Assembly: GCA_009780115.1 (NCBI GenBank)
Contig: WRAQ01000010.1
Location: forward strand, 1 to 64,000
DNA length: 64,000 bases
Reading direction: 5' to 3'
From: Lachnospiraceae bacterium
GTDB taxonomy: Bacteria > Bacillota > Clostridia > Lachnospirales > Lachnospiraceae
Below, one piece after another: positions 34,033 to 43,500 of the stretch. The notes below the pieces were generated by a model that was not told the origin of the DNA, made no database searches, and saw nothing but the letters and a program-made list of their open reading frames with translations. Numbering within the stretch: position 1 is the stretch's first letter; each line of letters begins with the position of its first letter. The translations under genes and the position numbers were made by a program.

Positions 34033-34746
34033 ATGGAAGAGCTCACAGTTCTGATTGAACGTTCACAGGCTGGAGAAAAGGAAGCGCGAGAAGTACTAAT
34101 TGAAAAAAACATGGGTCTTGTTCATCATATTGCCAGGCGCTTTATCGGCCGTGGTTGTGAAGTTGATGACCTTTTACAGATTGGCACAATTGGTTTGATG
34201 AAAGCGATTGACAAATTCGACATGAGTTTTGAAGTCAAATTTTCCACTTATGCAGTGCCGATGATTAGCGGCGAAATAAAACGCTTTCTCCGCGATGACG
34301 GTTTAATCAAAGTAAGCCGTTCGCTCAAAGAAAATAGCTACAAAATCAAACGCGCCGCCGAACGGTTAACACAAATTCATGGCCGTGACCCGACTTTGAA
34401 TGAAATTGCCGGTGAAACCGGAATTATGACGGAAGATATAGTTCTTGCTTTGGAAGCGGGGGCGGAAGTTGAGTCGATTTATAAAACGGTTTATCAATCT
34501 GACGGCAATGAAGTTTTTTTGATGGACAAACTGGCCGACCCGGACAAAGTAGACAAAGTCGTCAACAAAATGTTACTTAAGCAACTCCTTTCCGAGCTTG
34601 ATGAATCCGAACGGGAACTGATTATGCTTAGATATTTTCATGATAAAACCCAAACCGAAGTTGCCGGAAGGCTTGGTATTTCACAAGTGCAAGTCAGCCG
34701 AATGGAGAAAAAAATATTACTGACGATGAGGAGGAAAATAGGGTGA
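34033..34746 (+). CDS. sigF: RNA polymerase sporulation sigma factor SigF
   Basis: A 237-residue sigma-70 family factor that starts forespore gene expression. Region 2 shows EVDDLLQIGTIGLMKAIDKFD and FSTYAVPMISGEIKRFLRDD; region 3 has ERLTQIHGRDPTLNEIAGETG; region 4 has TQTEVAGRLGISQVQVSRME. It starts 1 base after the spoIIAB stop, so translation is coupled. It should drive forespore genes; the SASP gene nearby would be expected under SigG, which follows SigF. Confidence 0.96.
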   Translation: MEELTVLIERSQAGEKEAREVLIEKNMGLVHHIARRFIGRGCEVDDLLQIGTIGLMKAIDKFDMSFEVKFSTYAVPMISGEIKRFLRDDGLIKVSRSLKENSYKIKRAAERLTQIHGRDPTLNEIAGETGIMTEDIVLALEAGAEVESIYKTVYQSDGNEVFLMDKLADPDKVDKVVNKMLLKQLLSELDESERELIMLRYFHDKTQTEVAGRLGISQVQVSRMEKKILLTMRRKIG

Positions 34747-34772
34747 GGTACAAAAACATCTCGCAGGCTGAT
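34747..34772 (+). repeat. Fragment of repeat B (copy B4, left part only)
   Basis: GGTACAAAAACATCTCGCAG matches the left end of repeat B, but no core or right end follows. It appears to be a truncated copy between sigF and the PHP gene. Confidence 0.4.
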
Positions 34773-34801
34773 TTGCTTTCCTTATACAATCATGCTAAAA
34801 T
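34773..34801 (+). promoter_or_regulatory. Promoter of a probably leaderless PHP gene
   Basis: TTGCTT (34773-34778), a 17-base spacer ending in TGC, and TAAAAT (34796-34801) form an extended -10 promoter. Only six bases (ATCAGC) separate the -10 from the ATG at 34808, so transcription should start at or next to the start codon. No ribosome site is present. Confidence 0.5.
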
Positions 34802-34807
34802 ATCAGC

Positions 34808-35599
34808 ATGGGCAAAATAATTCTACCGCCGGAATATCCGTATCTTTTTGAAACTCATTTGCATACAAACCGTGGTAGTTCTTGTGCTTCGTGCGACCCG
34901 GTTGAGGCCGCCAAAGCATACAAACAAGCAGGCTACAGTGGAATTATTGTCACCGAACACAACTGGGGCGGCAATACTGCAATCAGCCGTTATTTGGCCT
35001 GGGAAGATTGGGTGCGGAAATTTATCCGCAGTTATCAGGAAGCCGAAGCCTGGGGGCGCAAAAATGGTTTGACGGTTTTGTGGGGATATGAGGCCGGATT
35101 TAACGGCACTGAATTTTTGATTTATGGACTGACCCCCGATTTTTTAATAAAGTACCCGGAGATAAGGTATGCGGGAGTAGAAGAGCAATACCGAATCGTT
35201 CATGAGGCCGGAGGTATCGTCGTCCATGCCCACCCTTTCCGCGAAGCTTATCATATTCCGGAAATCAGGCTTTACCCGGATTACGTTGATGCTATTGAAG
35301 GGTTCAACTGTGCGCATTTTAACCGGTTATCCAAAAATGATTTTGGTCTTTATGGTTACAAAGAAATGTATAACCGCAAAGCGATAGAATATGCCAACGA
35401 AAATGATTTTCCGATTACGGCCGGTTCCGATACCCATAGTACCAACTTGAGAGGCGGCGGGATGGCTTTTAAAACCTTACCAAGAGACGGGCGGCATTTC
35501 ATTGCAAGACTGCTTTCCCGCGAAGAATACCTCCTAACCGATGGCATAAATTGGTACGACCCCTACGGCAACCCGGTCGCGGAAGTAGAGGTTAGGTGA
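34808..35599 (+). CDS. PHP domain metal-dependent hydrolase
   Basis: A 263-residue protein of the PHP family. Metal-binding motifs in order: THLHTN near the N-terminus, TEHNWGG, an EAG segment, HAHPFR in the middle and GSDTHS near 220. PHP proteins hydrolyse phosphoesters; relatives include histidinol phosphatase and nucleoside monophosphate phosphatases. The substrate cannot be told. There is no Shine-Dalgarno site; a promoter with only six bases to the ATG suggests a leaderless mRNA. Not obviously part of the sigF operon. Confidence 0.85.
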   Translation: MGKIILPPEYPYLFETHLHTNRGSSCASCDPVEAAKAYKQAGYSGIIVTEHNWGGNTAISRYLAWEDWVRKFIRSYQEAEAWGRKNGLTVLWGYEAGFNGTEFLIYGLTPDFLIKYPEIRYAGVEEQYRIVHEAGGIVVHAHPFREAYHIPEIRLYPDYVDAIEGFNCAHFNRLSKNDFGLYGYKEMYNRKAIEYANENDFPITAGSDTHSTNLRGGGMAFKTLPRDGRHFIARLLSREEYLLTDGINWYDPYGNPVAEVEVR

Positions 35600-35657
35600 T
35601 GGGACGGTATAATGGAAGTGAAAGTGCGGGGGTAAATTACTTGAATTATACGAAGAT

Positions 35658-35770
35658 TAAGGCAGATAAAAACATCTCGCAGTTGCCTTAGGCCGCCTTC
35701 TTCCCCAGAGAAAACTTATATTTTACACCTATTAGGCCGTAGCAACGAAGAGAGTTTATTATCTGCCTTA
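35658..35770 (+). repeat. Structured intergenic repeat B, copy B5 (best-preserved)
   Basis: Perfect 12-bp terminal inverted repeats TAAGGCAGATAA (35658-35669) and TTATCTGCCTTA (35759-35770) bound a 113-bp element. Inner pairs are CATCTC with GAGAG, GTTGC with GCAAC, and GGCC with GGCC. The loop carries the conserved CGCCTTCTTCCC. It lies between the PHP gene and the convergent parvulin gene and covers the region just past both stops. Confidence 0.8.
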
Positions 35771-35774
35771 CTTT

Positions 35775-36815
35775 CTAAAAGTACTTCAAGTAAACATCAA
35801 AAAAATCTTTCGTCTGCACTTCACTATTATTTATAAAAGTAACCTGCTCCCACAAAACCTGATTAATATTCCTGGTTAAGGTACTAAGAAAAGCATTATA
35901 TTCCTGGCTAAAAACATCTTCACGCCGCTTTTCAACGATTTTAATTTTGTTATTGTCTGTTTCTTCGCGGTTAAAAGTATTAACACATTTGATAATATGA
36001 TAACCAAAACTAGTTTCAACGATTTCGCTTACTTCGCCGGTCCCTAATAAAAATGCCGCTTCTTCAAAGGGGGCCTCCATACCACCTTTGCCAAAAGAAT
36101 ACGCCGTTTGCTCATCTTCGCTGTAAAGCATCATCAGCCGCTCAAAATCCTCCCCGTTAAGGACTTGGTCATAGATTTTCTTAATCCGGTTGAAAGCATC
36201 AGCCCGGGCGGTTTCAGTATACTCAATTTTTTTGCCGGTCCCGTCAAGGGCATAAGTCTTTATCAAAATATGCCAAACAGTAATTGTCCGCGCCTCATCA
36301 TCACTAATTTCCGGATTCACATCTTTAATGATATAATGATAAATCTTGTCAGCGAGGGCATATTCACTATAAAGTGTTTCAATCGTCGCAAGTGTTACGC
36401 CCATCACTTCTTTTTCAATCCCGCTAAGTGAATTATAATATTCGGCGGCAGCAGCCTTAGCCAACTCAATTTCTTCTTCATCTAAGGAAATATCGTGTTT
36501 GGCCGCGAGCAAATTCATTGTTTTAATCTGGGCAATTTGTGCCAAAGCAATATCTTTGATACTATCTTCAAGTGTCTCACCGCCAAAGTCAACTGACCAA
36601 ATCTGGCGGCCGAAAACATTTTCATATTGGTTTTGGGCATTAGTCAGATAAACGCGGATTTCCGGAAGCAAGCATGACATTGTTTCAATCCGGAATACCT
36701 CATCACGCTGAAAGCCGGTCGTAAGAACGACCCTCATATCCGGGTCGTCTATTTCCCGGCAGGCACCTGCCGGGAGCAAAAATAAAATTAGTAAAAAAAA
36801 TAAAACCTTTTTCAT
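35775..36815 (-). CDS. Parvulin-type peptidyl-prolyl isomerase lipoprotein (PrsA-like)
   Basis: A 346-residue exported foldase. A signal peptide ends in the lipobox LLPAGAC with Cys19 as the lipid site. An N-terminal chaperone-like helical part follows, then a parvulin (rotamase) domain at about 176-285 (TVWHILIKTY, then FGKGGMEAPFEEAAFLLGTG and FGYHIIKC). It probably helps secreted proteins fold on the outer face of the membrane, as PrsA does. It is the downstream gene of a minus-strand pair with the FAD oxidoreductase, with no obvious functional link. Confidence 0.88.
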   Translation of the reverse strand: MKKVLFFLLILFLLPAGACREIDDPDMRVVLTTGFQRDEVFRIETMSCLLPEIRVYLTNAQNQYENVFGRQIWSVDFGGETLEDSIKDIALAQIAQIKTMNLLAAKHDISLDEEEIELAKAAAAEYYNSLSGIEKEVMGVTLATIETLYSEYALADKIYHYIIKDVNPEISDDEARTITVWHILIKTYALDGTGKKIEYTETARADAFNRIKKIYDQVLNGEDFERLMMLYSEDEQTAYSFGKGGMEAPFEEAAFLLGTGEVSEIVETSFGYHIIKCVNTFNREETDNNKIKIVEKRREDVFSQEYNAFLSTLTRNINQVLWEQVTFINNSEVQTKDFFDVYLKYF

Positions 36816-36844
36816 AATATATATCTTTCTATAAGAATGTCAGT

Positions 36845-38242
36845 TTATGGACATTCTTCACGTTCTATACTTCGTGCAAGGCTAATCCCGTTTGCCGATG
36901 CTTGCTGCAGCCCCCGGGTAATCCCGGCCCCATCCCCAATCGCATAAAGCCCTTTGATACTTGTTTCAAAATTCTTGTCAACAACGACCTTATTGGAATA
37001 AAACTTAACCTCAACGCCATAAAGTAAGGTTTCGTCACCGGCAATACCGGGCGTTATTTTGTCAAGGGCGACAATCATTTCCTCGATTGCAATCATAATC
37101 CGGTGCGGGAAAACTAATGATAAATCACCGGGAACCGCATCTTTTAATGTTGGCATCAAATTGTTGCGGCATAACCGCTCCTCGGTCGTCCGCCGGCCCC
37201 GGCGCAAATCACCGAAAGTCTGGACGAGAATCCGGCCGCCGCAAAGCATATTGGAAAGCTGGGCTATCTGCTTACCATATTCTATGGGTGTTTTAAACGG
37301 TTTAGTAAAGTTTTTGCTGACCAGAATAGCAAAGTTGGTATTATTCGTCTTAAATTCGCCGGATTTGTAAGCATGGCCGTTTACGACCGCAAGGCCGCCT
37401 TCGTAGTACTCGGTTGCCACTTCACCGGAAGGGTTTGTACAAAAAGTACGGACTTTGTCGTCAAAGGTCGGAGTATGATAAATCAGCTTTGCCTCATAAA
37501 GATTCTCATTAAGAAACTGCATGATTTCATCGCGGACTTCAACCCGGACACCGATATCAACCGTACCGGGTTTCGTTTCAATCCCGATTTCATCACATTT
37601 GTTTTTGAACCAGTCCGCCCCTTCACGGCCGACGGCACACACGATATGCTTAGCCCGGAAGATATCCCCTTTGTCGGTTTCAATCCCGGCCGCCCGGCCA
37701 TTTTCAAGCAAAATCTCCCGCGCCATCACTCCAAACATAAGCTCGATGCCGGCATCAATTAAATGTTGCTGCAATTTGCCGTAAATTTTGTAACCTTCTT
37801 CAGTACCAAGGTGACGAATCGGACATTCGACAAGCTTGAGATTAGCAACGATAGCTTTTTTGCGGATTTCACGGATTTCTTCATCTTTGTCCAAACCATA
37901 GACATTTTCATCAGCCCCGAATTTGAGATAAATTTGGTCGGATTCATTTATCAATTTCAATGTTTCGTCATAGCCTAAAATATTCGGCAGATTGCCGCCG
38001 ACATCAGGGGAGAGTGAAAGTTTTCCGTCTGAAAAAGCCCCGGCCCCGGCGAAGCCGGTGGTGATGGAACAGGGGTTGCAGCCAATACATTGCTTTGTCT
38101 TTCGTTTCGGGCAAAGCCGCTTCTCAATTGAGCGCCCCTTTTCAACAATGAGGATTTTTAAGTTTTCATTTTTTTCGATTAGTTCATAGGCACAGAATAT
38201 TCCGCTTGGTCCTGCACCGATGATAATTACATCATATGTCAT
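36845..38242 (-). CDS. FAD-dependent oxidoreductase with Cys cluster
   Basis: A 465-residue flavoprotein. The dinucleotide-binding motif IIIGAGPSGIFCAYEL is at the N-terminus. A cluster CPKRKTKQCIGCNPC follows (Cys about 44, 52, 55 and 58), then FAGAGAFSDGKL. The C-terminal FAD site reads YAIGDGAGITRGLQQA. The Cys spacing is compatible with an iron-sulphur or metal site. This is a widespread family of FAD-dependent dehydrogenases of unknown substrate. The start MTYDV is chosen because a TATAAT box ends six bases before it, implying a leaderless transcript; a TTG 12 codons upstream is the -35 sequence itself. Confidence 0.87.
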   Translation of the reverse strand: MTYDVIIIGAGPSGIFCAYELIEKNENLKILIVEKGRSIEKRLCPKRKTKQCIGCNPCSITTGFAGAGAFSDGKLSLSPDVGGNLPNILGYDETLKLINESDQIYLKFGADENVYGLDKDEEIREIRKKAIVANLKLVECPIRHLGTEEGYKIYGKLQQHLIDAGIELMFGVMAREILLENGRAAGIETDKGDIFRAKHIVCAVGREGADWFKNKCDEIGIETKPGTVDIGVRVEVRDEIMQFLNENLYEAKLIYHTPTFDDKVRTFCTNPSGEVATEYYEGGLAVVNGHAYKSGEFKTNNTNFAILVSKNFTKPFKTPIEYGKQIAQLSNMLCGGRILVQTFGDLRRGRRTTEERLCRNNLMPTLKDAVPGDLSLVFPHRIMIAIEEMIVALDKITPGIAGDETLLYGVEVKFYSNKVVVDKNFETSIKGLYAIGDGAGITRGLQQASANGISLARSIEREECP

Positions 38243-38248
38243 ATAATC

Positions 38249-38278
38249 ATTATAGCAATAATTGGGTTTACTTTTCAA
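38249..38278 (-). promoter_or_regulatory. Promoter of a probably leaderless FAD oxidoreductase gene
   Basis: On the minus strand TTGAAA (38278-38273), an 18-base spacer ending in TGC and TATAAT (38254-38249) are followed by GATTAT and then the ATG at 38242. No Shine-Dalgarno site is present. The same TGC-TAnAAT arrangement precedes the PHP gene. Confidence 0.6.
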
Positions 38279-38372
38279 GTGTTTTTTAGTATAATAAACG
38301 CGTAAACTGATTTAGCAGTTTATACACCTACAGTTTGCTTTTGCATAAATACATAAAAAGGAGAGATTTACA

Positions 38373-40565: not shown

Positions 40566-43500
40566 ATGAAAAGCATCATCACCCGCATTTTGGAAGGCGA
40601 CCTTCACCCTAATGCCGGCATCCTCGATTTTTCTTGCGCGAAAATCGATTTAGAACTTTGCCCCGGCGAGGATTACGAAGGTACCTTTCAAATCTATGGC
40701 CCATCTGGAAAACCCACTGAAGGCTTTGTCTATACCGACGACTTGGACATGGAGTTGTACACCCGCGAGTTCGCCGGAAGAGAATCAGAGATAGCCTTCT
40801 GTTTTCATTCGGGCAAAACTATCCCCGGTGATACCCGTAATGGTGAATTTGTCATTATCTCCAATCACGGTGAATTTGCTATCCCTTACCATATTACTAT
40901 TATCGCAAAAGAAATCGAATCAAGCCTGGGGCCGGTAAAAAATCTTTTCCATTTTACAAACCTGGCAAAAACTAACTGGGGTGAAGCGCTTAACCTCTTT
41001 AATAGTTCTTCGTTTCTTGAACTATTAAAAGGGGCGGACAAACAGTACATAACTATCTACCGCGGCCTCTCCGGCGGGAATAAGAACGATCAAAACATGG
41101 AAGAATTTTTGCTTGCCATCAAGAAAAAGCAAAAAATTGAGTTTTTTGCCGGAGAATCAAATATAAATTTAAAGGTTACTAATGAGCCAATCGAATACTT
41201 GCTCCCAGTCACCCGCAATGGCTGGGGTTTTTCAAATCTCTACTGCCAGTTGGAAGGGGACTTTCTGACTTGTGATAAAGAAGTCATTCGCGAAGAAGAT
41301 TATTTAGCCAATACCTATAAGCTACCTTATTATATAAATTTTGATAAGCTTTATTCCGGAAAAAACTTCGGCCGGATTAGACTTTTTAATGCCGATACGG
41401 AAATTAACATCCCGGTAACAGTTTCAAAAACTGACACCGGTGTCAGAAAAAAAACCCGCCGTTTGCATGAACATAAAAGTGACATTTTTAAGTTGATGAA
41501 CCTTTATATTGATTTTCGCGCTAAACAACTAAGTCAGGCGGCCTGGCGAAAAGAAACAGAACAACTAATCGATAGGATGATAAGCGCTTCCGACAAAGAC
41601 CTTTTGCCAAAGCTCTACCGCATCCAATTACTTATCACTGAAAACCGGATTAATGAAGCAAGCAGGTTGCTAAATCATGCTGATAGTTTGCTGGCGGGGC
41701 GGGAAAGGGAAATGCCGGAGTTATGGTGCTATTATCTATACCTAACGACTTTGGAAAACCGTGATGTCGCAATTACCAGCCGGGTTGCTTATGAAGTGGA
41801 GCGGTTTTATCTTAAGGACAGAGGTAATTGGCGGATTGGCTGGTTGCTTTGTTATCTAAAAGAGGAATATGTAGCAAATCCGGCCAAAAAGTGGGCGTTT
41901 TTGCGGGAATTGATTAAACAGGGTAATAACAGCCCGGTAATTCTTGTAGAAGCCTGGCAATTACTTAAACAAAAGCCGGAATATTTAACCAGGCTGGATG
42001 AATTTGAAATCCGCTTACTTTTATTTGCCGCCCGCCGCGGTTTAATCCCTAAAAGTTTAATCCCGCAGATTGTTTATTTAGCTGGAAAAAGTAAAAGCTT
42101 TTCCAACTTTTTGTACCAGATTTTGACAGCTTGTTATGAGATTTCAAATTCTGACGAAGTGGTGCAGGCGATATGTGAACTTTTGATAAAGGGCGAAAAA
42201 ACCGGGCCAGATTACTTTTCTTGGTATTTAGGAGGTGTCGGCCGTGATATTAATGTGACTAAACTTTATGAATATTTCATCTTTTCCCTTGACCAGGAAA
42301 ACGAGGCGGAAATCCCTAAACAGGTATTATTGTATTTTGCTTATAATAGTGAGATTGATTACCGCTATCAAGCGTATGTTTACGCATTTGTACACAAAAA
42401 CCGTGATATTTATCCCGAAATATATGCAAATTATTCCGGCAAAATAGAGCGTTTTGTGGCTAACCAGCTTTCCCGGGCCCGCACCGGAAAATGGCTTGCT
42501 TATCTTTACAAAAATTATATTACCCAAGCGATGATAAATGACGATAATGTGAACGGCCTTGCTGATATCTTGTTTACGGTCAAAATCGAGATATTAAAGG
42601 AAAATATCCGCGAAATTATTGTTTTATATGACAAAGTGAATTTGGAAATCACAAACCGGGCCGGCGGAAAAGTAAACTATATTATTTTGTACGGCATGGA
42701 ATATCAAATAATTTTGGTTGATTCCGAAGGAAACCGTTATGCCGGCCCGGAAAATTACCGGATTGAAAGATGGTTAAATCCGGATAAAATTGGCCGGATG
42801 ATTGCGCCGATGGTAAAAGAGCGGATCGGGTTTGATATTTGGGTTTGTGAGCAGGGCGACGAAATTGCAGTCGTGACACGAAGTAATCTTTCTGCTTATG
42901 AGCGGATTTGTTTAACCGATTATTTGGTGTCACCGTACCGTGAAACGTTATGCTTAAATCTGATTCGCTTTTATCATGATTTTGAAGAAAATGAATCCTT
43001 GGATAAAATCCTTAAAACGCTGAAATTAGCTGACATTGACTGCCGTTATCATGAGGAAATTCTGAAGATATTGACCGTCCGTCAATTATACTTCGAAGCT
43101 TATGAATGGTTAAGCAAAATTAGTACGCAGATACTTGATACAAAACTGATTTTGCGGATTTTACGTTATATAATACCCGATGAGGGTGCGGCGGCTGACC
43201 GGATGATTTTAAACCTTGCTTTTCAGTCATTTAAAGCGGCGAAATACGATGAAAAAATTCTCAATTATTTAATCAATTTTTATACCGGCTCAATTCGCAA
43301 GCAACGTGATATTTGGCTGGCGGGAAAAAGTTTTGGGCTTGATACCTTTAACCTTTCGGAAAGGTTATTAACGCAAATTCTTTATACCGGCACTTTTGTC
43401 GGCGAGCAGATGGAAATCTTCCGCGATTATGTCACGGGCGGCGGAAAAGGCGATATTATTAAGGCTTTTATTATCCAAAATGCGTATGAATATTTTGCAA

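Follow-up and report, generated by a model that had tools for sequence, protein, structure and literature searches.

Two probable leaderless genes behind extended -10 promoters, and a small class of similarly arranged genes, in a Lachnospiraceae genome

Can promoters in a clostridial genome lie so near the start codons of their genes that the messenger would begin with the codon itself? The question is raised by two genes in a stretch of 64,000 nucleotides (positions 1 to 64,000 of contig WRAQ01000010.1; hereafter, the window) from a Lachnospiraceae bacterium (G000), one encoding a PHP-type metallohydrolase and the other an FAD-dependent oxidoreductase. A preliminary description of the window read both as probable leaderless genes, each with TGC-TA(A/T)AAT ending six bases before the ATG (34808 for PHP; 38242, minus strand, for FAD), a suitable -35 and no ribosome-binding site, and it raised a link to stress or sporulation. 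Letters and coordinates of the boxes are as it gave them. The features are listed below, where G005 is the closest relative examined.

34773-34778, plus strand: weak -35-like hexamer TTGCTT of the PHP gene, from the window letters
34793-34801, plus strand: extended -10 TGC-TAAAAT of the PHP gene, ending six bases 5' of the ATG
34808-35599, plus strand: PHP-type metallohydrolase gene (open reading frame), predicted transcription start at the A of the ATG, 34808
36845-38242, minus strand: FAD-dependent oxidoreductase gene (open reading frame), predicted transcription start at the A of the ATG, 38242
38257-38249, minus strand: extended -10 TGC-TATAAT of the FAD gene, ending six bases 5' of the ATG
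38278-38273, minus strand: -35 hexamer TTGAAA of the FAD gene, kept in G005
38267-38295, plus strand: divergent htpG promoter TTTACT-N17-TATAAT from the promoter scan, overlapping the FAD promoter

The FAD promoter (TTGAAA-N18-TGC-TATAAT-N6-ATG) matches the -35 consensus at 5/6 positions and the sigma-A consensus at 11/12 overall, has the TG in addition, and ranks first among the 13 sites that a scan of 3.9 kb detected. The PHP promoter (TTGCTT-N17-TGC-TAAAAT-N6-ATG) matches TTGACA at 3/6 positions with a spacer of 17 and lies below the threshold of the scan of the same 3.9 kb. The -35 is thus good for FAD and weak for PHP, whose transcription would lean on the TG extension. At both starts the Shine-Dalgarno (SD) match has length 0, with not even 3 nt scored, and 42 of the 47 genes called in the window have a match of at least 4 nt, which qualifies the earlier remark that almost all neighbors have strong ones. 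The five without such a match are PHP, FAD and the genes at 2310 (minus), 34033 (sigF, with a short AGG only) and 36815 (minus). The FAD product contains PF07992 and PF21688, and its N-terminus, MTYDVIIIGAGPSG, aligns with those of its orthologues. The PHP product, whose N-terminus also agrees with orthologues, scores above the cut-off for PF13263 (PHP_C) and below the respective cut-offs for PF02811 (PHP) and the CehA/McbA model. The 5' ends of the two genes are not unusually unstructured (z of 0.63 and 0.49).

In bacterial promoters, the -10 hexamer spans positions -12 to -7. With six bases between hexamer and start codon, position +1 thus falls on the A of the ATG in both PHP and FAD. We propose that sigma-A RNA polymerase bound at these extended -10 elements would start at this A, give or take a base or two, that the transcripts would carry a 5'-terminal AUG, their leaderless form being encoded by the layout of the DNA, and that the terminal AUG would recruit ribosomes without an SD, most likely as complete 70S particles; 70S ribosomes load on leaderless mRNAs in general. 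On the sequence evidence set out below, both genes probably have sigma-A extended -10 promoters that yield leaderless mRNAs.

Whether the layout could be due to chance was assessed by a spacer test. The sample, 60 stretches of the same genome plus the window, comprised 1,262,438 bases (41% of 3.08 Mb) and 867 genes, called with a home-made program that used simple codon usage and SD and was blind to promoters; 111 of the 867 starts were SD-less. Boxes of the form TANAAT were counted at each distance of 0 to 40 from the start, with a split by SD status for spacers 3 to 11, where the counts were 1, 0, 2, 13, 2, 1, 1, 0 and 1 at SD-less starts (n = 111) and 1, 0, 1, 0, 1, 1, 1, 0 and 1 at SD-led starts (n = 756). 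The sole peak is at spacer 6, with 13/111 SD-less against 0/756 SD-led starts, and PHP and FAD are two of the 13. Since a box at this spacing mechanically precludes an SD, the contrast between SD classes (Fisher 1.3e-12) is poorer evidence than the peak among the SD-less starts; in all 867 starts together, spacer 6 has 13 boxes, and the remaining eight spacers from 3 to 11 average 1.75 (Poisson approximately 5e-8). Out-of-frame start codons near the sampled genes had no such peak (24 at spacer 6, within a range of 13 to 31 over spacers 0 to 40). An identical procedure applied to 800,000 bases and 589 genes of G005 found the box at spacer 6 in 7/70 SD-less starts, for which no other spacer between 2 and 15 had more than one, and in 0/519 SD-led starts. 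A class of SD-less genes with a promoter box at this position exists in the genome.

The looser pattern TANNNT at spacer 6 adds to the SD-less set, giving 22 genes in G000 and 13 in G005 (35 in all), compared with 2/756 and 6/519 SD-led starts, respectively. All 35 begin with ATG, TG precedes the box in 13/35 (4 to 9% elsewhere), and a pyrimidine stands at -1 in 28/35, as expected for a transcription start at A. Compared with other SD-less starts, pyrimidines are modestly in excess (p = 0.02 with both genomes pooled; 0.22 and 0.06 for each genome by itself). PHP and FAD conform, both starting with ATG, with C and T at -1, respectively, and hence a purine at +1 after a pyrimidine. The class would amount to about 1.5 to 2% of genes, or roughly 13 to 22 in the sampled 41% of the genome. 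The extended -10 signature that PHP and FAD were said to share is indeed present in both and is generic to this class rather than peculiar to the pair. Raw counts of TGNTAWAAT-N6-ATG against the N9 version in 61 genomes (23 versus 9 in G000, 24 versus 19 in G005, near parity in many relatives) did not serve as the main test; they take no account of gene starts and do not cleanly separate lineages. One candidate of the class, an HrcA-like gene at C6:40629 in G000, is probably a false positive beside a CIRCE-like repeat.

Comparison of orthologues indicates how far the layout is kept. In G005, the PHP protein is 81% identical, CAATCATGCTAAAATAT recurs unaltered and N6 is kept amid many differences in the flanking bases, and TTGCCT occupies the -35 position at unchanged spacing. 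In G002 (67%), the sequence upstream of PHP has diverged, and TAAAAT lies six bases 5' of a GTG start, overlapping the sigF stop codon; the layout is absent from G001 and G003. An inverted repeat across the PHP -10 (ATGCT-N8-AGCAT, 34792-34809) was considered as an operator and rejected as chance, its right arm being GGCAT in G005. For FAD, G005 keeps TTGAAA, TATAAT and N6 but not TGC, and in G002 and beyond a leader is present, mostly with an SD. Among 80 named FAD loci, 77 have an SD of at least 4 nt at a plausible start (one of them with a chance box as well), two have a weak one, and only the G005 record is leaderless. The best named relative is from Lachnospiraceae isolate Th196P3bin150 (WRLH01000016.1, 93% identity), followed by WQST01000011.1. 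Across 145 reciprocal-best pairs in the sampled parts of G000 and G005, five G000 genes are leaderless-type, of which three, FAD included, are so in G005, and a further three pairs are leaderless-type in G005 only. PHP falls outside these pairs, its G005 copy running across the end of a sampled stretch. The layout is conserved in the sister species at some loci and has been gained or lost at others; with FAD leaderless in one of 80 named relatives and the PHP layout missing from G001 and G003, it is not deeply conserved. Taken with the genome-wide spacing, its replication in G005 and the bias in start codon and initiator base, the orthologues support the original reading of both genes as probably leaderless well. 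Separately, the DUF5717 gene at 40566 (plus) has an SD-like AAAGG, and its G005 orthologue is SD-less with TANNNT (a TATAAT-like overlap) at spacer 6; the mode of initiation may have changed from one sister species to the other.

An alternative hypothesis is that the boxes are chance matches in AT-rich sequence, that the true promoters lie upstream, and that translation proceeds through SD-poor leaders or, for PHP, by coupling to sigF. About one to two strict boxes per spacer are expected by chance in the sample, so a minority of the spacer-6 cases may be of this kind; PHP begins 61 nt past sigF, with no terminator-like site reported in between by the promoter and terminator scan; and the gene at 36815 (minus) is SD-less without any spacer-6 box. 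Against this, the 47 window genes have two boxes where only about 0.1 would be expected, two sister species retain the PHP box and one retains the FAD box, and FAD has no upstream gene on its own strand, its upstream neighbor htpG being divergent. We consider this explanation unlikely. A leaderless form acting as a regulated stress or sporulation switch, made or translated preferentially when the balance of ribosomes and initiation factors alters, is very improbable: PHP directly follows spoIIAA-spoIIAB-sigF, FAD is divergent from the chaperone gene htpG with overlapping promoters, and butanol or butyrate stress alters which transcripts of Clostridium acetobutylicum are leaderless (PMC4533764), but the promoters of both genes have a sigma-A-like appearance, reading through the sampled leaderless genes brings out no obvious stress theme, and nearly all named FAD relatives are SD-led, which leaves the role suggested at the outset unsupported. 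The sporulation sigma factors found in the genome are SigF, in the window, and, as the strongest match to the SigG model elsewhere, a SigG-like protein whose score of 414 bits falls short of the curated cut-off (457).

A leaderless PHP transcript would not preclude a longer one. As no terminator-like site separates sigF from PHP, read-through from the sporulation operon may also cover the gene; such an mRNA would have no SD for PHP, and the gene's own promoter would therefore be the main source of protein. Upstream sequences place PHP directly after sigF (34033-35599) in G000, G005 and G002 and elsewhere in G001 and G003. On the other side of the pair, the htpG (38267-38295, plus) and FAD (38249-38278, minus) promoters overlap back to back in G000 and likewise in G005, and not in G002. 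In the two former genomes, the FAD -35 sits within the spacer of the htpG promoter, and the two promoters therefore probably compete for polymerase. Downstream, 29 nt past FAD, the peptidyl-prolyl isomerase lipoprotein gene at 36815 (minus) has no clear SD, and its counterparts in G005 and G002 look similarly weak.

Whether the class is specific to this genus was assessed against two comparators. None of 279 genes in 347 kb of G024 was leaderless-type, nor was any of 223 genes in the neighborhoods of 78 of the 80 named FAD loci, a set that leaves out L167 and L168 (same genus) and the FAD genes (0/300 with them). Pooled, G000 and G005 have 20/1456 against 0/502 in the two comparator samples (Fisher 0.004, with the 78 loci sharing neighborhoods and hence non-independent); a comparison with just the 78 loci gives p = 0.08 (G000) and p = 0.20 (G005). 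The share of SD-less starts is no different (29/223 at the 78 loci versus 111/867 in G000; p = 0.91). Because the loci are non-independent and the separate p values weak, a genus-specific expansion of the leaderless class can be put forward only tentatively. We speculate that one Lachnospiraceae genus, of which two close species were examined, gained several dozen SD-less, promoter-encoded leaderless genes that its neighbors do not have, and that SD-led genes such as FAD were converted in place, a scenario we regard as possible though somewhat doubtful. To judge from isolate names, both species' lineages probably come from the termite gut. If the scenario is true, the genus is a natural experiment in which a Gram-positive lineage switches its mode of initiation gene by gene. 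In G044, a genome of the same order, the matches listed include at least 11 copies of the 18-mer TGGTAAAATAATCCTATG, on many contigs; this promoter-like box beside an ATG may belong to a dispersed repeat or a mobile element.

The analysis singles out genes with no ribosome-binding site to fall back on, among them FAD, which has SD-led relatives in other genera. Leaderless translation in Gram-positive anaerobes could be tested on this short list of genes, which is also a caution for gene prediction that depends on SD signals. Wider interest is limited to the class-level signal and its possible enrichment in the genus. The closest known counterpart is the TA-led genes of Zheng et al. (2011), which have TANNNT at about -12 from the start codon and no SD and were read as leaderless; in low-GC genomes their box reads TAtAAT, and several of these genomes also have a TG peak (PMC3160421). 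PHP and FAD share both traits, a box that ends about 6 nt 5' of the start codon and the absence of an SD. In the accessible part of that survey, the TA-led genes of Firmicutes are mainly from Lactobacillales and Mycoplasma and not from Lachnospiraceae, where we find them at about 1.5 to 2% of genes. Within the family, 4% of intergenic sense starts in Clostridium phytofermentans are potentially leaderless, a similarly low frequency; according to the portion available, those genes generally have another upstream start and keep a typical ribosome-binding site, whereas the class here is defined by the absence of an SD (PMC5171806). The authors of that map asked whether close relatives are similar. 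Leaderless transcripts are few as well in solventogenic clostridia (about 2 to 3%; PMC9045289) and Clostridioides difficile (15 genes; PMC7438776), which belong to other families; these are experimental maps, and their available sections describe no SD-less promoter class. Excerpts of further maps give 212 leaderless genes among those detected by proteomics in C. acetobutylicum (PMC4533764), none strictly leaderless in Bacillus methanolicus (PMC4342826), and, in a mouse-gut community that includes a Lachnospiraceae bacterium, 10 to 15% leaderless transcripts named only for Akkermansia and Bifidobacterium (PMC4782308). No description of an SD-less leaderless class in Lachnospiraceae was found among the open-license papers listed by the searches. 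Low-level leaderless transcripts in clostridia are of a kind already known; the novelty, a modest one, lies in a promoter-encoded class without SD within a single Lachnospiraceae genus.
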